Origin: Hymenobacter sp. YIM 151858-1
GTDB lineage: Bacteria; Bacteroidota; Bacteroidia; Cytophagales; Hymenobacteraceae
Reading direction: 5' to 3'
Assembly (NCBI RefSeq): GCF_025979705.1
Contig: NZ_CP110138.1
Span: 1-64,000, forward strand
Length of the DNA stretch: 64,000 bases
A program made the position numbers and the translations under genes. Positions within the stretch are counted from its first letter, which is position 1. Each line of letters begins with the position of its first letter. A model generated the notes under the pieces. That model did not search any database and was not told where the DNA came from. It saw nothing but the letters and a program-made list of their open reading frames with translations. This document shows, piece after piece, positions 1,116 through 22,293 of this stretch.

Positions 1116-1505
1116 CTACTGCCCAATCACGTATACCGGTACGGCTTGCGCATTGGCGCCCCGCCCGGTTTCCTTCTTCACTTCCTTGCCATCAAGCAGG
1201 ATGGCGGCGGTGATTTCCGAAGCGGCCGTGCCGCCGGCGAGGCTGGCCAGCAGGCTGAGGTGGTCCCCCTGCTTCATGGTGCGCTTGAAGCGGTAGGTAG
1301 CCGGCAGCGGGACGTTATTGACCGTGGTGGTGCCGCCGCTCTCGTTGTCGTAGCTGATGTAGTCCGACGCCGGGGCGGTGGTGGAAGAAATGCGGTACTC
1401 CACCTGGTATTCCTTGGGGCCGGTGGGTGTCGCGTCGTCTTTGGCGCAGCTGCCGGCCGTGGCCAGGGCCGCGCCGCTTAGTAGCAGGGTGGCAAGTCGT
1501 TTCAT
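1116..1505 (-). CDS. Small lipoprotein of the transfer operon
   Basis: The 129-residue product starts with a short basic N-region and a hydrophobic core, then a lipobox-like Ala-Gly-Ser-Cys with Cys at residue 20, so it is probably lipidated and held at a membrane. The rest is a small, Thr/Ser-rich, beta-strand-like domain of the kind seen in MmpS-like accessory proteins, ending in a VPVYVIG strand. It sits 13 bases downstream of traO in the same direction and probably belongs to the outer-membrane part of the channel, possibly as a VirB7-like component. That role is inferred from position only. Confidence 0.55.
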   Translation of the reverse strand: MKRLATLLLSGAALATAGSCAKDDATPTGPKEYQVEYRISSTTAPASDYISYDNESGGTTTVNNVPLPATYRFKRTMKQGDHLSLLASLAGGTAASEITAAILLDGKEVKKETGRGANAQAVPVYVIGQ

Positions 1506-15637: not shown

Positions 15638-15802
15638 ATGGGACGTTTGCACAAAGGCTACGCACACTTGCACCGGGAGCTGAGCCTGCTGCTGGTGGAC
15701 GAGCACGGCTGCCTGGTGCTGCGCCTGTTTATGCGCGCTGAATGCCGGTTGGTGCGGGGCCTGAAGGTGGTGCGGGGGCGGTATTTGTTTTTCGCCTGCT
15801 AG
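15638..15802 (+). CDS. Small basic protein, 54 aa
   Basis: This short frame starts at ATG 15638 and ends at TAG 15802. The product alternates hydrophobic and basic residues (LSLLLVDEHGCLVLRLF, then a VRGRYLFF tail), so it reads like a compact beta-sheet protein rather than noise. It stands just upstream of the sigma factor promoter element and ends inside a stem-loop. No family was recognised. It may be a genuine small gene or a decayed remnant. Confidence 0.35.
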   Translation: MGRLHKGYAHLHRELSLLLVDEHGCLVLRLFMRAECRLVRGLKVVRGRYLFFAC

Positions 15803-15819
15803 CGAGCAGCGTCTTTTTT
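15796..15819 (+). terminator. Stem-loop and T-run after the 54-aa frame
   Basis: CTGCT-AGCG-AGCAG forms a 5-bp stem, and CGTC followed by six T residues comes after it. The T-run is also part of the 27-bp element shared with 17901-17927, so it may serve as promoter rather than terminator. Confidence 0.35.
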
Positions 15820-15835
15820 CAGGTCGGTCGTCTAT
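15809..15835 (+). promoter_or_regulatory. Putative ECF sigma autoregulated promoter upstream of sigZ
   Basis: This 27-bp element (GCGTCTTTTTT, nine bases, CGTCTAT) recurs at 17901-17927 with only three differences. The CGTCTA part resembles the -10 element recognised by many ECF sigma factors. It lies 12 bases upstream of the sigma factor ATG, or 24 upstream of the internal ATG at 15860, so transcription may start very close to the gene. Confidence 0.5.
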
Positions 15836-15847
15836 TCACGGAACTGG

Positions 15848-16420
15848 ATGCCCTTGCTTATGCCCCCTTCCCTGACCACGGCCGCCATCTGGACGGAATT
15901 TCACCGCGAGCTGCTGGCCTTTATTCGGCGCCGCGTGCCGGACCCGGACACCGCGCAGGACCTGCTGCAGGACGTGTTTGTGAAGATTCACCTCAAGCTG
16001 CCCACCCTGACCCACGCCGACCGGTTGGCCAGTTGGGTTTACCAGATTACCCGCAACCGTATTCTGGACTACCACAAAGCCCCGCGCCCCGCCGCGGCGC
16101 AGGTGCCGGACCTGCCCGAGGACAGCAGTCCCGCGCCAGCGCTGGATTTTACCCCGTGCCTGGCGCCCTTTTTAAACCAGCTGCCGGCCAGGTCCCGCGA
16201 GGCCTTGCTGCGCACGGAGTTGGGTCCGCTGTCCCAGAAAGACTACGCGGCCGAGCTGGGCATATCCTACTCTGGGGCCAAGTCGCGGGTGCAGCGGGCC
16301 AAGCAGCAGCTGCATCAGCTGTTCACGGCCTGCTGCCGGATGGAAGCCGACGGCTACGGCAACATTCTGGCGTCTACGCCCCGCACCCCCTGCGGCTGCG
16401 TTGCCCTGGGCCGCTGCTAA
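15848..16420 (+). CDS. sigZ: ECF RNA polymerase sigma factor, SigZ type with Cys-rich tail
   Basis: The 190-residue protein has a sigma-70 region 2 (about 13-78: FHRELLAFIRRRV, DLLQDVFVKIHLKL, DRLASWVYQITRN) and a region 4 (about 105-160: LPARSREALLRTEL, SQKDYAAELGISYSGAKSRV). The C-terminus carries CC near residue 166 and then CGC and a terminal Cys, as in SigZ-like proteins. In CorE-type ECF factors a Cys-rich tail senses metal directly, so self-sensing is plausible here. No anti-sigma gene is adjacent. Met-5 (15860) may be the true start, since the putative promoter ends at 15835. A copy of that promoter element precedes the Cys-rich peptide gene downstream. Confidence 0.85.
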   Translation: MPLLMPPSLTTAAIWTEFHRELLAFIRRRVPDPDTAQDLLQDVFVKIHLKLPTLTHADRLASWVYQITRNRILDYHKAPRPAAAQVPDLPEDSSPAPALDFTPCLAPFLNQLPARSREALLRTELGPLSQKDYAAELGISYSGAKSRVQRAKQQLHQLFTACCRMEADGYGNILASTPRTPCGCVALGRC

Positions 16421-16533
16421 GAGTTGGCCTTCCGGCCAGAGCTACTGGGGAAAGGTAGTGGACGAAACAGAACGGATGATACCTTGCACACGAGCCGGTG
16501 TACCATTCCATAATCGTTTCTGCTTGCCCTTCT

Positions 16534-17880
16534 ATGGCTTTTGATAATTCCGATGAGCAGCTCTTGCTTGACGAGAAAGTTAAGCTATTCAAAGAGTGGT
16601 TTGAAAGCCCGCACTTCGACCCGCGCATGCTTCCGTTTCGCGAGGTCTTGGAGGATTTAAAAGAAGTCAAGAGCAAACGGGACGGCAGCGGCCAGGTGGA
16701 CCCGGCTACGGTATCGGGCCAGGTAAGGGCACTGCTGAATGCTTTCTATGCTTCGCATCTGACGCCGCCGTCCATGTACGACCAGGCGACGTCGGTGTAC
16801 CAATCGTTTCTGCAGAAGCAGATTTTCTTTCGGCAGCGCACCGTTGATACGGTCGAAGAGTTGGAAGACGTTATCCGGCGGTTCAGCGCGAAAAGGAAAC
16901 ACTTGTTTCGCGGCGTCCACGATGCCAGCTTTATGCTCTACAGCTCGCTTCAGCGGACCTGGAAGGCCCGGGGGTGGTTTAATCAGGCCATCGACTACCA
17001 CCAGTTTGTCGCCCGGTTGGTGGCCAATGCCCGCTTGTACTGCGGGGGAATACTCGCGCGGTATATCGATGCGCACGGGGGCGACTACAACAACGATGTC
17101 AGCGTGCTGAGCATCTTGCAGCACTACGGCTGCCCGACGCCCATCCTCGACTGGACCTACGATTTTCGGGTCGCGCTCTACTTCTCGGCGTTGGGCGCGT
17201 CATCCGCCTTGCCGCGCTCAAGCCGGGAAATCGACCGCTACCTGAGCATTTATTACATCAAGGAGAAATGGTTTACCCCCAATAGCCTGCGGGTTATGCT
17301 GGAGACAAGCCTTAAGGGAAGCTTGGACCTAATCCGGCCCGCCGTGCTGGAAAAGCTGGAGCAAGACCTGGCTACCAACCCCGCTTTTGCCACGTTCACG
17401 ACCGAGACGATAGAAAAGTTTAAGCAGGACGATGAAGCCCTTGTGCGGGCGGCGCTCAGCTCGTATCACGTGGCCGGATTAACCAACCACATGTGTCAAA
17501 TCGACTTGCTGTCACGAATCCCGGCGTTCTACTTCTCGGACCGGGAGGAAGAATACGTTCCGATTGGGCTCCAGAACAGTCCCAACGTAACCAACCAGCA
17601 AGGCGTCTTTACGTGGAACAACTCCGCGGCCAATCCCATGGAGCACACCGTGCGTGAAATGATGCTGGCGGAAAAACCGGACACGATACACTACTACACG
17701 AAGTGCCTTAACATCAACAAAGCGCTGATACCACACATCTTTGACCACTTGGCCCACGAGGGCATTACGCCTGATTTCATCTTCCCGGAGAAAGACCAAG
17801 AACACCTGCGCAATCTGGTGTGGCGCATTTTTGAGATAACGGCGAAGGAGTTTGAGCCCGCCAGTACCGCCGCTAATTAA
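16534..17880 (+). CDS. FRG-domain protein
   Basis: I chose the ATG at 16534 (448 residues), which starts MAFDNSDEQLLLDEKVKLF. The upstream extension is short and atypical. The FRG domain is at about residues 110-220, with HLFRGVHDASFMLYSSLQR (the Phe-Arg-Gly signature) and LSILQHYGCPTPILDW followed by RVALYFSA, the hallmark PTxLLDWT-like block. FRG-domain proteins have no settled biochemical role and often occur in mobile or defence contexts. Codon use is less GC-biased than in the flanking plasmid genes. It sits between sigZ and the Cys-peptide gene and may have inserted there. Confidence 0.75.
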   Translation: MAFDNSDEQLLLDEKVKLFKEWFESPHFDPRMLPFREVLEDLKEVKSKRDGSGQVDPATVSGQVRALLNAFYASHLTPPSMYDQATSVYQSFLQKQIFFRQRTVDTVEELEDVIRRFSAKRKHLFRGVHDASFMLYSSLQRTWKARGWFNQAIDYHQFVARLVANARLYCGGILARYIDAHGGDYNNDVSVLSILQHYGCPTPILDWTYDFRVALYFSALGASSALPRSSREIDRYLSIYYIKEKWFTPNSLRVMLETSLKGSLDLIRPAVLEKLEQDLATNPAFATFTTETIEKFKQDDEALVRAALSSYHVAGLTNHMCQIDLLSRIPAFYFSDREEEYVPIGLQNSPNVTNQQGVFTWNNSAANPMEHTVREMMLAEKPDTIHYYTKCLNINKALIPHIFDHLAHEGITPDFIFPEKDQEHLRNLVWRIFEITAKEFEPASTAAN

Positions 17881-17900
17881 CCGCTCGTTGTTCTGCAGCC

Positions 17901-17927
17901 GCGTCTTTTTTGAGGGCCGTCGTCTAT
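17901..17927 (+). promoter_or_regulatory. Second copy of the sigZ-type promoter element
   Basis: It is identical to 15809-15835 at 24 of 27 positions (differences at positions 12, 16 and 18 of the element). It lies 49 bases upstream of the ATG of the Cys-rich peptide. An imperfect inverted repeat (TGAGGT ... ACCTCA) overlaps and follows its 3' end. Confidence 0.5.
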
Positions 17928-17976
17928 GAGGTGTACCAAGTTGGTATGGCGTACCTCACCTTAATCCTCGATTGTC

Positions 17977-18045
17977 ATGAACAACGAACCAGATGATTGC
18001 TGCGACGGCACCTGCTGCGGCGGCAATACCAGCGGGTGCTGCTAG
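17977..18045 (+). CDS. Cys-rich micropeptide, 22 aa
   Basis: This ATG-to-TAG frame encodes 22 residues with six cysteines as three CC pairs (CC-x3-CC-x6-CC, residues 8-9, 13-14 and 21-22) and an acidic N-terminus. It has its own promoter-like element upstream and a strong terminator 17 bases downstream, so it is probably expressed as a monocistronic message. Cys pairs in so short a peptide suggest soft-metal or arsenite binding. It sits next to, but is transcribed opposite to, the arsenic operon. Function is inferred only. Confidence 0.5.
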   Translation: MNNEPDDCCDGTCCGGNTSGCC

Positions 18046-18061
18046 GCCGCCCGCGGCATGA

Positions 18062-18095
18062 AAAAAGGGAACGGGCGTAGGTCCGTTCCCTTTTT
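18062..18095 (+). terminator. Bidirectional intrinsic terminator
   Basis: A 13-bp perfect stem (AAAAAGGGAACGG with CCGTTCCCTTTTT) around an 8-base loop has a T-run in each direction. It closes the micropeptide transcript and may also stop read-through from the other strand. Confidence 0.9.
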
Positions 18096-18422
18096 GCTTG
18101 GTAGGGCCAGGAAGATTAGGCGACCGTGCCGTCGCAGCCGGGCCTACGCGGAATATTTCGGCGACTTTTTTAGCCCTAGTCCTGCCTCATCAGGCATCTA
18201 CCGCGCCGAGTGGGCCGGGCACTGGTACCGCTATTCCAGCGGGCAACGGGTGACTATCATCAAGAAGAACCCGCTCAAAAACTTCGTTATGCGGCGGCTG
18301 CCGTGAGGAGGTCGGCTTTTCCCCGGTGCCGCACCAGCAGCGCCGATAGACCCATTATTGTTGGCGTGGCATCACTGGTTTGGGCACCTTCAGCGTGGGC
18401 GGCCAGGCGCACGGGGCCGGGT

Positions 18423-18863
18423 TCAAGCGGTGGGGGACGGAGCGAACTGCGTACGGGCGAATTCCTGCGCGTAGGCTTTCACCTGGTCGCGCACCGTGCG
18501 GAACTGCTGCATGATTTCTTCCTCACTGCCCACGGCCTTGGCCGGGTCTGGGAAGTTGTGGTGCAGCTTCCGGGCTGAGGAAGGAAATACCGGGCACACC
18601 TCGTTGGCGTGGTCGCACACGGTCAGCACGTAGTCAAAAGGCACGGCGGCGTACTCATCGACGTGGTTGCTGGTGTGGTGCGAAATGTCCACGCCGTCTT
18701 CGGCCATCACGCGCACGGCGCGGGGATTAACGCCGTGCACTTCAACGCCCGCACTGTAGATGATGGCCTGGTTGCCCAAGGCTTGCTGGAGGTAGCCGTG
18801 CAGCAGTTGGCTGCGGCAGGAATTGCCGGTGCACAGCACCAGCACGTTTTTCTCATCAGTCAT
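18423..18863 (-). CDS. arsC: Arsenate reductase (low-molecular-weight phosphatase family)
   Basis: The 146-residue protein has the LMW-PTP P-loop C-x5-R-S at residues 11-18 (CTGNSCRS). Redox cysteines C83 and C90 match the resolving pair of thioredoxin-coupled ArsC enzymes, and the catalytic DP dipeptide is at about 106-107. It reduces arsenate to arsenite in the cytoplasm for export by the adjacent Acr3 pump. It is the last gene of the ars operon, 22 bases after acr3. Confidence 0.9.
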   Translation of the reverse strand: MTDEKNVLVLCTGNSCRSQLLHGYLQQALGNQAIIYSAGVEVHGVNPRAVRVMAEDGVDISHHTSNHVDEYAAVPFDYVLTVCDHANEVCPVFPSSARKLHHNFPDPAKAVGSEEEIMQQFRTVRDQVKAYAQEFARTQFAPSPTA

Positions 18864-18885
18864 GGGAGGAAAAATGGAGAAGTAG

Positions 18886-19992
18886 CTACGCCGTTGGTGA
18901 CCCCATCTTATCCCCGTACCAGCGCCGCCGGAACCAGAAAGCCAGGTTCACCAGCGCAATCAGCGCCGGCACCTCAATCAGCGGCCCAATCACGCCGGCA
19001 AACGCCTGCCCCGAATTGAGCCCAAATACCCCGATGGCCACGGCAATGGCCAGCTCGAAGTTGTTGCCCGTCGCCGTGAAGGCGATGCTGGCATTCTCCG
19101 CGTAGCCCGCCCCCAGCCATTTGCCGGCCGCGAAGCTGAGCACGAACATGATGCCGAAGTACAACGCCAGCGGCAGGGCGATGCGTAGCACGTCGAGCGG
19201 CACCTGCACGATGGTTTCGCCTTTGAGGCTGAACATGATGACGATGGTAAGCAGCAGCGCCACGAGTGTGATGGGGCTAATGGCCGGGAGGTACACCTGC
19301 TCGTACCACGCGTTGCCCTTCAGGCGGCGCAGAATGGTGCGCGAAAGGAAGCCCGCCGCAAACGGGATGCCCAGGTAGATGAGCACGCTCTGCGCGATGT
19401 CCCCGATGCCGATGTTCACGGCGTAGCCCTTCAGGCCAAAGAAGGGGGGCAGCATAGTGATGAAGAGCCAGGCTAGCACCGAGTAGAACAGCACTTGAAA
19501 GAGGGAATTCAGCGCCACCAGTCCGGCCGCGTACTCGCGGCTGCCATCGGCCAGGTCGTTCCACACGAGCACCATGGCAATGCAGCGGGCAATGCCGATG
19601 AGAATCAAGCCCATCATGTATTCTGGCTTGTCGGGCAGCAGCCAGACGGCCAGAAAGAACATGAGCAGCGGCCCGAGTATCCAGTTCAAAAACAAGGACA
19701 GCCCGATGATGCGCGTGTTCCGGAAGACCTTGGGCAGCTCTTCGTACTTGACCTTGGCCAGGGGTGGGTACATCATCAGAATCAGGCCCAGGGCCAGCGG
19801 CACGTTCACGGTGCCCACGGAGAAGTAGTTCACCGCGTCGTTCATGCCGGGCACGAAGTAGCCCAAAGCCACGCCCAGCGCCATGGCCAGGAATATCCAC
19901 AGCGTCAGGCCCCGGTCCAGGCCCGAAAGCTTTTTCTCGGCCAGGGCGGCGGGGGCCGGAGCGGCGGGTACGGGTTGATTCAGCGTCGTCAT
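18886..19992 (-). CDS. arsB: Arsenite efflux permease Acr3
   Basis: I took the ATG at 19992 (368 residues); a TTG at 20013 is the only upstream alternative and overlaps arsN. About ten transmembrane helices are visible. The conserved [10 protein letters not shown] segment holds the essential Acr3 cysteine, and [15 protein letters not shown] lies near the C-terminus. Acr3 expels arsenite driven by proton motive force. The Pro/Ala-rich cytoplasmic N-terminus (about 20 residues) is common. The gene lies between arsN and arsC. Confidence 0.92.
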
Positions 19993-20005
19993 AAAAATAG
20001 CTGTC

Positions 20006-20500
20006 TTACGCAACGCCTACGGTCGGGCTGCGCCGCTCCATTTGCACCGTGTTGCGCCACACGCCGTGGTGCTGGCCAATTCGCTCCCGGTAGCCAATGA
20101 TGCGGAACCCCGCCTGCGTGTGCAGGCCAATGCTGGCCTTGTTTTCTTCAAACGTGCCGGCCTGCAGCGTCCAGATGCCGTGCGCTTCCGAATCTGCAAT
20201 CAAGGCCTGCAGCAGGTGCCGGCCCACGCCTTGCCCCCGCGCCTCGGCCGCGATGTACACGCTGATTTCGGCCACGCCGCCGTACACGCAGCGGCTCGAC
20301 ACCGGCGAGAGCGCCGCCCAGCCCAGCACTGTGCCGGCCTCGTCCACCGCCACCAGGCGGCTATGGTTCAGGTGGGCTTTGTCCCAGGCTTCCCAAGCCG
20401 GCGCCTGGGTTTCAAACGTGGCATTACCGGTCGCCATGCCGGCTTCGTAAATGGCCTTCACCGCCGGCCAGTGGGCGTCCGTCATCGGGATAATGGTCAT
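20006..20500 (-). CDS. arsN: GNAT acetyltransferase, ArsN/phosphinothricin acetyltransferase-like
   Basis: The 164-residue GNAT protein has the acetyl-CoA binding motif [15 protein letters not shown] at about residues 88-102 and the PAT-like features [22 protein letters not shown] and [17 protein letters not shown]. In ars operons this family includes ArsN1, which N-acetylates arsinothricin. The operon context makes ArsN the most likely identity, but phosphinothricin or a related amine could also be a substrate. It lies 12 bases after the metallophosphoesterase gene. Confidence 0.8.
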
Positions 20501-20512
20501 GGCAGAAACGGG

Positions 20513-21286
20513 TTAGTAGGCTTTGCGCAGCATGTCGGCGTACTCGTTGGGCAGCGGCGAGGCCTCCACCGCCCGCGCGGCTTTCTCCACGTCGTATTCC
20601 ACGCGCACCAGCTCCGAGCGCACGCTGCCGGGGTCCGTCAGGGTGGTGTGCTCGTCCAGGTGCAGCAGTTGGTAGGCGGCCCGCGGGTCGCCGTCTTTGG
20701 GCTTGCCCACCGAGCCGATGTTGAGCGCGTGCCGGTAGCGGGTTTCGCCTGCGTGTTCGTAGGCGAAGGTGCGGTGGTAGGGCTTGTGGGTGTGCCCAAA
20801 CAGCAGGATGTCGGCCTGGGCTTCCTGCAGCACCCGCAGGAAACTGGCTTCGGGCCGGTCCTCGAACAGGTACTCGTTGATTTTGCGGGGTGAGCCGTGC
20901 ACCATCAGCAGGCTCAACGTGCAGGGCTCTTCCTGAAAGTCCAGGCGCATGTGCTTGGGCAGGTAGCGCAGGTAGCGCCGCTCGTCGGCCCCGACCACTT
21001 GGTTGGTAAAGGCAATGCTCTGGGCGCCCAGGTCTTTCTCCGTGTCCGTTTTGTAGGCGCAGCCGCAGTTCTCGCTGGCCAGGCCAATGCCCTGGTCGTA
21101 GTTGCCGGCCAGCGTCGGGATGCCCCGCCGGCGGACTTCGTTGACCACTTCATTCGGCCAGGGGGCGTACCCCACTAAGTCGCCCAGGCAAAAAATCATG
21201 TCCGGGCGGCGCCGGTCCATATCGGCCAGCACCGCTTCCAGGGCCGGCAGGTTGCCGTGCACGTCGGAGAAAAAGGCAATTGTCAT
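20513..21286 (-). CDS. Metallophosphoesterase (YfcE/MJ0936-like)
   Basis: The ATG at 21286 gives 257 residues starting with FFSDVHGNLPALEAVL, which carries metal ligands D-x-H. CLGDLVGYAPWPNEV (GD-x2-GY), AGNYDQ (GNHD-like, with Asn-Tyr-Asp) and LLFGHTHKPY (GHTH) follow. All belong to the calcineurin-like metallophosphoesterase fold. The substrate is unknown. Such genes occur in some Bacteroidota ars operons. It lies between DUF6428 and arsN. Confidence 0.85.
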   Translation of the reverse strand: MTIAFFSDVHGNLPALEAVLADMDRRRPDMIFCLGDLVGYAPWPNEVVNEVRRRGIPTLAGNYDQGIGLASENCGCAYKTDTEKDLGAQSIAFTNQVVGADERRYLRYLPKHMRLDFQEEPCTLSLLMVHGSPRKINEYLFEDRPEASFLRVLQEAQADILLFGHTHKPYHRTFAYEHAGETRYRHALNIGSVGKPKDGDPRAAYQLLHLDEHTTLTDPGSVRSELVRVEYDVEKAARAVEASPLPNEYADMLRKAY

Positions 21287-21367
21287 CAGAGAGAAGAAGT
21301 CAGCAAAAGGCAAAAGAGCAACTCAGCAAAACGGCGCCACCTGCGAAGGCAGCGCCGTTGCGCAAGC

Positions 21368-21826
21368 TTAGCAGCACCCGCCGCCCGGGGTGCAGCCGGC
21401 CACCTGCAGCTGGGGCAGGGCTAGGTCCTGGGCCGGAATGCCGCAGGCCTCCTGGGCCAGGCAGGCCGTGTGCTTGGGGGTGAGCACGAAATCGGTGCCG
21501 TCGAAGGTGAGGCCGAACTTGCCGATGGTGGCTTGCTGGTACTCCACCTCGATGTCGAGGTCTTCGCGGCCGAGGATTTTCTCCGACAGCTTCAGGATGT
21601 GCAGAAACTTCTGGGGCGCTAGGCGGTGGTCGTAGTCGCCGGCCTCCCAGAGCTGGAAGTTGGCGACCGTCTCGCGGCGCTCGACGCCGCCGCAGTCGAT
21701 GAAGTGCTTGCTCACGAGGCCCACTTCCGTCACGTGGAAATGCGAGGGCAGGTACTCACCCGAGGGCAGGCGAAAGTTGACGGCTTCGAGACCCGCGAGG
21801 GTCTGCTTCATTTCGGCGATGTTCAT
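21368..21826 (-). CDS. DUF6428-like ars-operon protein
   Basis: The 152-residue protein (ATG at 21826; a TTG six bases upstream is less likely) has FRLPSGEYLPSHFHVTEVG near the N-terminus. Its C-terminus is GGGCC preceded by another Cys, a plausible arsenite-binding tail. It resembles the DUF6428 family, repeatedly found beside arsR in Bacteroidota, whose role is unknown. It lies 57 bases downstream of arsR and 81 bases upstream of the phosphoesterase. Confidence 0.75.
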   Translation of the reverse strand: MNIAEMKQTLAGLEAVNFRLPSGEYLPSHFHVTEVGLVSKHFIDCGGVERRETVANFQLWEAGDYDHRLAPQKFLHILKLSEKILGREDLDIEVEYQQATIGKFGLTFDGTDFVLTPKHTACLAQEACGIPAQDLALPQLQVAGCTPGGGCC

Positions 21827-21883
21827 GGTCAAGCGTGGTTGGGTTGAGGATGTTCAAGAAAGGGGTTGGCAAAAGCTGCGGAA

Positions 21884-22234
21884 TCAGCAGCTGCACGCAT
21901 CCGCGGGTCCGCAGGCCGGGCTGGCGGTAGCTTCAATGAAGAAGGCCGTGAACTGCTGCTGCACCTGCTGCAGCAGCTCGGTATTGAGGCAGTAGCACAC
22001 CGTCAGGCCGTCGATTTCCCCGCGGATGAGGTCCAGGGCCTTGAGCTCTTGCAGGTGCTGCGAAACCGTGGTGCGCGAGAGCGGCAGCTCGGCGGCGATG
22101 TCGCCGGAAATGCACGTCTGCTTGGAGGCCAGCAATTGAATGATGGCCACGCGGGCCGGGTGCGCCAGCGCCTTCGCCACGCGGGCCAGTTGCTGTTGTT
22201 CTTCCGTAAAGGCGGCGGTTTTAGCGTAGGTCAT
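21884..22234 (-). CDS. arsR: Arsenic-responsive repressor ArsR
   Basis: The 116-residue winged-helix protein starts at ATG 22234. The recognition helix region is [20 protein letters not shown], followed by the wing [12 protein letters not shown]. That Cys pair is a likely arsenite site, as the usual ELCVCDL pair is replaced by QTCISGD with a single Cys. The C-terminus ends in CSC. It is the first gene of the ars operon and is preceded by two perfect palindromes, so autorepression is likely. Confidence 0.9.
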
Positions 22235-22248
22235 GGCAGGCTGTGAAG

Positions 22249-22293
22249 TATGTCGCAAATATACGACATAATATGACGCATGTTTACGTCATA
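22249..22293. promoter_or_regulatory. Tandem palindromic ArsR operator
   Basis: Two perfect inverted repeats stand side by side: TATGTCG-N8-CGACATA (22249-22270) and TATGACG-N8-CGTCATA (22272-22293). Their centres are 23 bp apart, about two helical turns. They begin 15 bases upstream of the arsR start, so ArsR dimers bound here would cover the promoter. Confidence 0.85.

Follow-up and report, generated by a model that had tools for sequence, protein, structure and literature searches.

Why should one 27-bp sequence occur twice in the same neighbourhood, once before a gene for a SigZ-like extracytoplasmic function (ECF) sigma factor and once before an open reading frame (ORF) of 22 codons that is rich in cysteine? 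The question was raised by Hymenobacter sp. YIM 151858-1, of which 64 kb from the start of a contig of 100.9 kb (NZ_CP110138.1; whole genome 4.62 Mb) were analysed; this stretch of 64,000 nucleotides is called the window below. Sequence comparison strongly supports the view that the repeat is a promoter common to sigZ and the micropeptide. SigZ very probably uses this element, and the micropeptide is likely to be made and to bind a metal or metalloid. The reading as a whole, in which SigZ acts through the shared element to express its own gene and a micropeptide that binds a metal(loid), is considered probable, and the part of it that makes the cysteine-rich tail of SigZ the sensor is favoured with somewhat less confidence.

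The two copies of the element, at 15809-15835 and 17901-17927, differ at three positions, all inside the 8-bp spacer of the pattern GCGTCTTTTT-N8-GTCGTCTAT; both the positions and the number of changes had been given in an earlier sequence-only reading of the window and were confirmed. No match to the pattern was expected across 100 dinucleotide shuffles of the window, and even with up to three mismatches allowed it occurred at two places only in the 4.62-Mb genome. The element has the two-box layout of an ECF promoter, GCGTCTTTTT-N10/11-CGTCTA. Since CGTCTA by itself was not enriched in the window (8 observed vs 14.5 expected), the significance depends on the complete bipartite element. Among the four distinct Hymenobacter elements both boxes (10 bp and 9 bp, 19 bp together) were invariant while 7 of the 8 spacer positions varied, which is the pattern expected for a promoter. 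Because the spacers of the two copies differ in both lineages compared (at 3/8 positions in the window and 5/8 in H. telluris) while the boxes stay invariant, the copies are, judged by their letters, not a recent local duplication. The housekeeping Bacteroidota -7 box (TANNTTTG, at most one mismatch allowed) was absent from the plus strand upstream of sigZ and of the micropeptide.

When 200 genomes of the host family were searched, SigZ orthologues 73% and 71% identical to the window protein were found in two other genomes, those of H. telluris BT186 and H. perfusus LMG 26000. Both genomes carry the order element, sigZ, element, micropeptide and terminator, so the pairing foreseen by the sequence-only reading is retained in related genomes. 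The FRG-domain gene that lies between sigZ and the second element in the window is missing from the corresponding position in H. telluris and H. perfusus (L004 and L005); the pairing of element, sigZ, element and peptide therefore probably predates its arrival, and the FRG gene is probably an insertion outside the module. Of 204 family genomes, 6 had the exact 18-base element; one mismatch added no match, and two mismatches gave 15 matches, which resemble background (a reversed-pattern control gave clearly more, counts not summed). A profile of the peptide gave expectation values (E) below 1e-10 in 6 of the same 204 genomes, identical to the six with the exact element, the next best E being 0.023; in a sample of 390 genomes from the order, four reached E 0.02 or better, and each of these belongs to those six.

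A second allele, with a single element, was found in H. latericoloratus, H. sediminis and Hymenobacter sp. 15J16-1T3B (L063, L065 and L066), in which the left flank of the window leads to one element and then to the peptide gene. It appears that sigZ was lost from these three genomes through recombination between the promoter copies. The local DNA of this allele was identical over about 400 bp in the three species, which suggests a recent transfer. No copy of the module was found by DNA search in the plasmid and phage collections, where three plasmid matches covered the FRG gene and the stretch after the peptide, and tblastn with the 22-residue peptide against plasmids found nothing. The sole exact match to the N8 element outside Hymenobacter among genome contigs, in a metagenome-assembled genome of Latescibacterota (L064), was taken as chance.

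Outside Hymenobacter the motif was first seen by eye in 22 distant SigZ loci. For counting, the scan motif was defined in Hymenobacter letters as GCGTCTTTTT, a gap of 9-11 and CGTCTA, with at least 13 of the 16 bases matching; the best of the three spacer lengths was taken at each place, alike for sense, antisense and shuffled sequence. Three sets of loci were used: 27 non-Hymenobacter loci within the best 30 of 66 SigZ matches in the host family (set 1), all 22 non-self SigZ loci from 296 Bacteroidota genomes, at 33-43% identity (set 2), and 11 further loci among the 17 of another family, one of the 11 coming from a genome that gave two (set 3). The sense-strand motif was found at 52 of these 60 loci (25/27, 18/22 and 9/11 in sets 1, 2 and 3), and an adjacent cysteine-rich micropeptide at 13 of them, which answers the proposal in the sequence-only reading to look for the pair at other Bacteroidota sigZ loci. 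The best 30 of 66 host-family loci held 31 sense and 0 antisense matches (5 of the 31 in Hymenobacter) and set 2 held 25 sense and 6 antisense matches, while five Markov shuffles per set gave 0-2 matches each. Lowering the threshold to 12 brought antisense and shuffled matches to between about one fifth and somewhat above one half of the sense count, so that no result was based on scores of 12. Elements of Hymenobacter and of one genus in family f42 had a gap of 10 bp, and 11 bp was the usual gap in other lineages; the -10 half differed by lineage (CGTCTA, CGTCTT, CGTCATC, CGACTA) and the -35 half was constant. The earlier suggestion that the duplicated element is a regulatory unit is in this way extended to a conserved two-box motif in promoter-like position at SigZ loci of several Bacteroidota families. 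One of the six antisense matches was exact: in genome G743 it lies some 350 bp from sigZ, on the upstream side, and faces a divergent gene. The window also holds an extra 14/16 match at 2943-2971, with a complete -35 box and a poor -10 box, which is probably due to chance.

Specificity was examined on the level of genomes. The exact pattern (gap 10 or 11) was present in 9 of 25 genomes with SigZ, or 6 of 22 without the three Hymenobacter genomes that were the source of the pattern, and in 0 of 80 control genomes lacking a match to the window SigZ at 1e-25, of which three (G574, G592 and G603) hold a SigZ found by another query. The association of exact motif and SigZ had a Fisher P value of 5.5e-5, or 1.3e-4 once these three controls were moved. 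Among the 12 exact matches, the distance to sigZ was at most about 0.7 kb for the six outside Hymenobacter and 1.5 kb for the second copy in the window. The exact-match sites sit inside loci of the 52/60 count and are not independent of it; the genome test adds specificity rather than sites, as the genomes concerned held no exact site elsewhere and the controls held none at all.

The genes behind the motif were examined at 43 motif-bearing loci among the 49 non-Hymenobacter loci of sets 1 and 2, two matches being excluded as spurious (L026 at 3039 and L093 at 2628). At these 43 loci the motif stood 9-55 nt before the first plausible ORF (kinds in Table 1). In L087 a cysteine-rich ORF begins about 39 nt after the motif. 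At four arsI/cadI loci that were inspected (L006, L008, L012 and L022) an additional ORF lies between arsI and sigZ, that of L022 being ArsN1-like, below the cut-off (128.8 vs 170 bits). A cysteine-rich ORF was counted as adjacent if it lay on the strand of sigZ and within 350 bp of it, had 20-70 codons and contained at least 20% cysteine; such ORFs were found at 11 of 22 set-2 loci vs 0 of 22 on the opposite strand, and incidental ones at 2 of 27 control loci. The 13 non-Hymenobacter loci with an adjacent metallothionein-like micropeptide comprise these 11, L025 and L027, and none of set 3. The peptides of these other lineages have 26-52 residues, are metallothionein-like and lie either upstream or downstream of sigZ.

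Beyond the phylum, ten SigZ-like plasmid loci were hand-picked among the matches listed of 1448 records, a small set with nine loci outside Bacteroidota and one from Arenibacter. The motif reached at least 13/16 at six of the ten, all six outside Bacteroidota. Two Priestia loci have one common site, immediately 5' of sigZ and directed towards an aldo/keto reductase gene, and in Ideonella (L117) and Sulfuricella (L122) the motif stands just downstream of the sigma gene. The Photobacterium site precedes a GST-like gene and is 0.8 kb away from sigZ on its upstream side. In Vibrio cortegadensis the distance is 2 kb, again upstream, and the motif stands at the head of a run of same-strand genes with sigZ as the last of them; a further match at this locus is unexplained. 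The Arenibacter, Rhodococcus, Nonomuraea and other Vibrio plasmid loci had no match at 13. In the two Betaproteobacteria, Ideonella and Sulfuricella, the SigZ-like sigma gene stands among arsenic genes.

The ORF downstream of the second element reads MNNEPDDCCDGTCCGGNTSGCC, in agreement with the CC-x3-CC-x6-CC peptide of 22 residues described before. Six Hymenobacter units (four of them distinct) share the layout of element, small predicted 5' hairpin, ORF and terminator-like hairpin, and the last of these stands in the equivalent position in the relatives with a different stem sequence. Across Hymenobacter the start, the stop and every cysteine codon of the ORF were conserved, with one in-frame 3-nt insertion; the cysteine pattern was preserved in all four versions of the peptide, and a serine was preserved despite a switch of its codon from AGC to TCG. 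Codon changes numbered 4 silent and 3 non-silent between the window and H. telluris, and 2 silent and 5 non-silent between H. telluris and 15J16-1T3B, so the codon statistics are weak. Comparison of these units, over a length of 22 codons only, supports a coding ORF with a transcription unit of its own. The window peptide had no match at E 0.001 in Pfam or NCBIfam, their metallothionein families included; the cysteine-rich peptides of relatives likewise had no family match at E 0.001 (two tested in NCBIfam, one in Pfam).

The two best NCBIfam families of the window sigma factor were the SigZ models TIGR02959 and NF007215, matched over nearly the whole length but below both equivalog cut-offs (158.6 vs 168.65 and 169.2 vs 212 bits). 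It is an ECF (group 4) sigma factor, with Sigma70_r2 and r4_2 as its only Pfam regions and a TIGR02937 score of 60.7 against a cut-off of 42.9 bits; a fold search placed ECF structures on top, with low whole-chain template modelling scores (0.28-0.37, top 30). Translation is likely to start at ATG 15860 rather than at 15848, since the former agrees better with the starts of homologues. As described in the sequence-only reading, the protein ends in a cysteine-rich tail, with five cysteines within the final 30 residues in the pattern CC-x19-CxC-x5-C. In an alignment of 36 SigZ-like proteins, 33 of them non-Hymenobacter members 30-44% identical to the window SigZ, most had CC at the end of sigma4 and more cysteines in a tail of about 25-30 residues, and C158 and C178 (numbered from 15860) were nearly invariant, at 90% or more. 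In the AlphaFold2 model sigma2 and sigma4 are well formed, and the last sigma4 helix is followed by a tail with a beta hairpin; the mean predicted local distance difference test score was 85, falling to 67 and 51 in the last blocks, and the predicted template modelling score was 0.48. The earlier statement that there is no anti-sigma gene also held, none being recognised among the neighbours examined (the 54-codon ORF, the FRG-domain gene and the ars cluster past the peptide). The proposed likeness to CorE-type factors stood for the mechanism, in that a cysteine-rich C-terminal domain is shared; it did not stand for the marker of these factors, as the CXC motif in the linker between sigma2 and sigma4 is absent from the window SigZ, which has a single linker cysteine (DFTPCLAPF). 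The SigZ proteins linked to arsI/cadI (L006-L032 except L016, L018, L025 and L027) have an extra N-terminal extension that contains cysteines, e.g. MENCC...DSCAAVAP, possibly a second metal site; the proteins of L016 and L018 were read from a later start.

From these data the following mechanism is proposed. SigZ would be an ECF sigma factor without a recognised anti-sigma factor, whose RNA polymerase would recognise the two boxes of the element as -35 and -10 boxes. The cysteine tail would bind a thiophilic ion, which would turn SigZ on; As(III) or a different arsenical is the likeliest candidate, with Hg(II) and Cd(II) as possible ones. The first copy of the element would then drive sigZ in a positive feedback, and the second a stand-alone transcript of about 165 nt with a 5' hairpin, the 22-codon cysteine-rich ORF and a terminator; the micropeptide would bind the same ion and, by buffering it, switch SigZ off. 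That SigZ reads the element, that its tail senses an arsenical or soft metal and that the peptide, in binding that ion too, dampens the response are what we infer. Arsenicals are favoured because arsI/cadI and arsM genes stand behind the motif and sigma genes stand among ars genes, and Hg(II) was also considered because of the mer genes beside the Hymenobacter peptide. A much wider extension is conceivable but doubtful, namely that SigZ-type factors in several phyla form one self-sensing arsenical or soft-metal response with one conserved promoter (GCGTCTTTTT-N10/11-CGTCTA), and that in many Bacteroidota a cysteine-rich micropeptide replaces the anti-sigma factor, strips the metal from the tail and closes the loop.

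Several observations weigh against a SigZ-driven promoter with a micropeptide as its partner. The sense-strand motif was missing at 8 of the 60 non-Hymenobacter loci and the exact motif from 16 of the 22 SigZ genomes, and 47 of the 60 loci had no adjacent micropeptide, 25 of the 27 set-1 loci having arsI/cadI-type genes instead. The counts themselves are not all of equal value: the 18/22 of set 2 was not a blind result, as the six-base -10 box and the gap range had been set after a view of these loci by eye, and although sets 1 and 3 come nearer to a blind test, the 25/27 of set 1 comes from close relatives that are not independent and contribute few independent cases. Counted from the start of GCGTC to the start of CGTC, the boxes are 20-21 bp apart, a little less than in textbook ECF promoters. 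The ars cluster of the window had no motif match of at least 13/16. Finally, SigZ at E 1e-25 or better was not found in the three single-element Hymenobacter genomes, which represent one allele; an element and peptide kept there without sigZ would mean either that the element does not strictly depend on SigZ or that a decaying remnant is seen.

The same single-element genomes are also what speaks for reading the 27-bp repeats not as promoters but as sites at which a mobile sigZ cassette recombines or attaches, since a single element without sigZ resembles an empty site or a deletion from repeat to repeat. We regard this as highly improbable: the spacers of the two copies differ in the window and in H. 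telluris alike, and the motif recurs before ORFs at the SigZ loci of many genera, often with one match per locus. It is likewise very unlikely that the element is an operator of another regulator, e.g. of ArsR type, that lies at SigZ loci by coincidence. An ars or mer cluster with ArsR genes is indeed nearby in Hymenobacter, but the motif is asymmetric and strand-polar (31:0 and 25:6) and tracks SigZ across genomes, whereas ArsR operators are usually dyads, and a dyad resembling one, recognised by eye, stands separately before the mer-linked ArsR gene.

Two further alternatives accept the promoter and concern the small ORF. That it is a leader peptide or attenuator like CruR or CutF, or a dispensable part of a small RNA, and not a metal-binding peptide would suit the short and structured transcript with its 5' hairpin and terminator, and upstream ORFs containing cysteine that regulate metal genes are described in part of PMC9973294. 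The terminator-like hairpin, however, stands directly after the stop codon and the sequence beyond it differs, with a possible small ORF (18058-18306) and arsC on the opposite strand in the window and an ArsR gene in the relatives; the cysteine pattern is kept in every Hymenobacter version, and the longer metallothionein-like peptides of other lineages occur on either side of sigZ. This alternative is thus unlikely. To the idea that the micropeptide regulates SigZ, its apo form binding the cysteine tail or competing for the metal as a miniature anti-sigma factor, we give a similarly low probability. The window has no recognised anti-sigma gene, the peptide has a sigZ-type promoter or sits just before sigZ, and both partners are rich in cysteine, but the 47 loci without an adjacent peptide stand against such a role. 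The preferred reading remains that of a SigZ-dependent promoter serving sigZ and a metal(loid)-binding micropeptide.

The features of the window are listed in Table 1 together with the genes behind the motif at other loci. The gene next to the peptide in H. telluris, H. perfusus and the three sigZ-less genomes encodes an ArsR-type regulator, and in the sigZ-less allele L063 this ArsR gene is followed by MerTP and a GDCCVxC protein. A palindrome like an ArsR operator (TTATTTAAGCG...CTTAAATAA) was noticed by eye at 1251-1290 (minus strand) of locus L004, before the ArsR gene downstream of the micropeptide terminator.

Table 1 Features of the sigZ-micropeptide region in the window (positions of the window) and genes behind the motif at other SigZ loci
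Feature	Position or loci	Strand	Evidence or remark
54-codon ORF without recognised family, upstream of sigZ	15638..15802	+	DNA of its end conserved upstream of the single element in L063, L065, L066
SigZ-type promoter element, copy 1 (probable)	15809..15835	+	Upstream of sigZ; exact, with no match expected in shuffles
sigZ-like ECF sigma factor gene (sigma2, sigma4, Cys-rich tail)	15848..16420	+	NCBIfam, Pfam, 73%/71% orthologues
C-terminal SigZ tail rich in Cys (CC ... CxC ... C), proposed to sense metal(loid)s	16328..16417	+	Alignment, AlphaFold2
FRG-domain gene between sigZ and copy 2	16537..17880	+	Pfam FRG, 53.7 bits; PADLOC candidate defence family PDC-S15, 203.3 bits
SigZ-type promoter element, copy 2 (probable)	17901..17927	+	About 50 nt 5' of micropeptide start codon
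Small predicted hairpin near 5' end of micropeptide transcript	17933..17947	+	Predicted there in six Hymenobacter units, four distinct
Cys-rich micropeptide ORF, 22 codons, CC-x3-CC-x6-CC	17977..18045	+	Conserved in relatives
Possible small ORF beyond micropeptide terminator	18058-18306		Beside opposite-strand arsC
Strong intrinsic-terminator-like hairpin right after micropeptide stop	18062..18095	+	15-bp stem, then T run
ars cluster, transcribed towards the module (arsC, ACR3, ArsN1-like acetyltransferase, phosphoesterase, DUF6428, ArsR)	18423..22258	-	Context
sigZ behind motif	L087-L091, L093, L094
Cys-rich micropeptide behind motif	L087, L088, L090, L091, L096, L101, L106, L107
ArsI/CadI-type gene behind motif	25 set-1 loci, L099, L102		Alike N-termini; three named by NCBIfam
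ArsM gene behind motif	L086, L092		L086 named; L092 by eye
PhzF-like gene behind motif	L098, L097		L098 named; L097 by eye
PAP2-type gene behind motif	L093, L094		L093 by Pfam, just above cut-off; L094 by eye
Gene of 116-residue protein without family match behind motif, then sigZ	L095

With a motif that follows SigZ over several Bacteroidota families and is found near SigZ in a few Bacillota and Pseudomonadota, the function of SigZ becomes directly testable, and a poorly understood family of sigma factors gains a testable role. The arsI/cadI and arsM genes and cysteine-rich micropeptides behind the motif point to arsenicals or soft metals, and cysteine-rich ORFs that are very short and probably overlooked can be annotated by means of a recognisable promoter. 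The pairing of SigZ with a micropeptide was not described in the open-access full-text literature searched, and the -35 string gave only unrelated matches among those listed there. The main ECF re-classification lies outside that search and may list the promoter, so the promoter could already be known; novelty is most likely for the pairing with a micropeptide.

Among known systems, the SigZ family (TIGR02959/NF007215) is the top family match, and the motif also stands near annotated sigZ genes on Priestia and Vibrio plasmids; the difference is that the window protein stays below both curated cut-offs. For SigZ of Bacillus subtilis no function is listed in a 2023 table (PMC10141391). The peptides linked to SigZ resemble bacterial metallothioneins in being short, with up to about 38% cysteine and no other obvious domain, but differ in having 22-52 residues, in being tied to SigZ and, for those compared with Pfam or NCBIfam, in matching no curated family. 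With CruR and CutF, as far as these are covered in part of PMC9973294, the window shares a small cysteine-containing ORF tied to metal genes, whereas its ORF apparently has a promoter and a terminator of its own and no downstream cistron in the unit. OrbS of Burkholderia cenocepacia has been described, in a section of PMC9023288, as an ECF sigma factor with C-terminal cysteines as an on-board metal sensor; it is inhibited by iron, has another cysteine spacing and serves siderophore genes, in all of which it differs from the window SigZ. The closest parallel is found in CorE and CorE2 of Myxococcus xanthus, which according to the relevant parts of three papers sense copper (CorE) and cadmium and zinc (CorE2) through cysteine tails without an anti-sigma factor, belong to the former ECF44, now ECF238, and control metal-handling genes, CorE contributing to its own expression (PMC3107203; PMC9023288; PMC8999054). 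They share with the window SigZ the combination of an ECF sigma factor, a cysteine-rich C-terminal extension and no anti-sigma gene. In the portions of this work that were consulted, the CorE tail is C-x4-C-x2-C-x1-C, unlike the CC-x19-CxC-x5-C of the window SigZ, and the CorE promoter search began from AAC in the -35 region, which is GCGTCTTTTT in the SigZ element. A linker CXC marks the CorE-type factors, yet about 85% of ECF238 members lack it, as stated in a section of PMC8999054. Since its linker has no CXC, the window SigZ is not classed as CorE-like, although it probably works like CorE.

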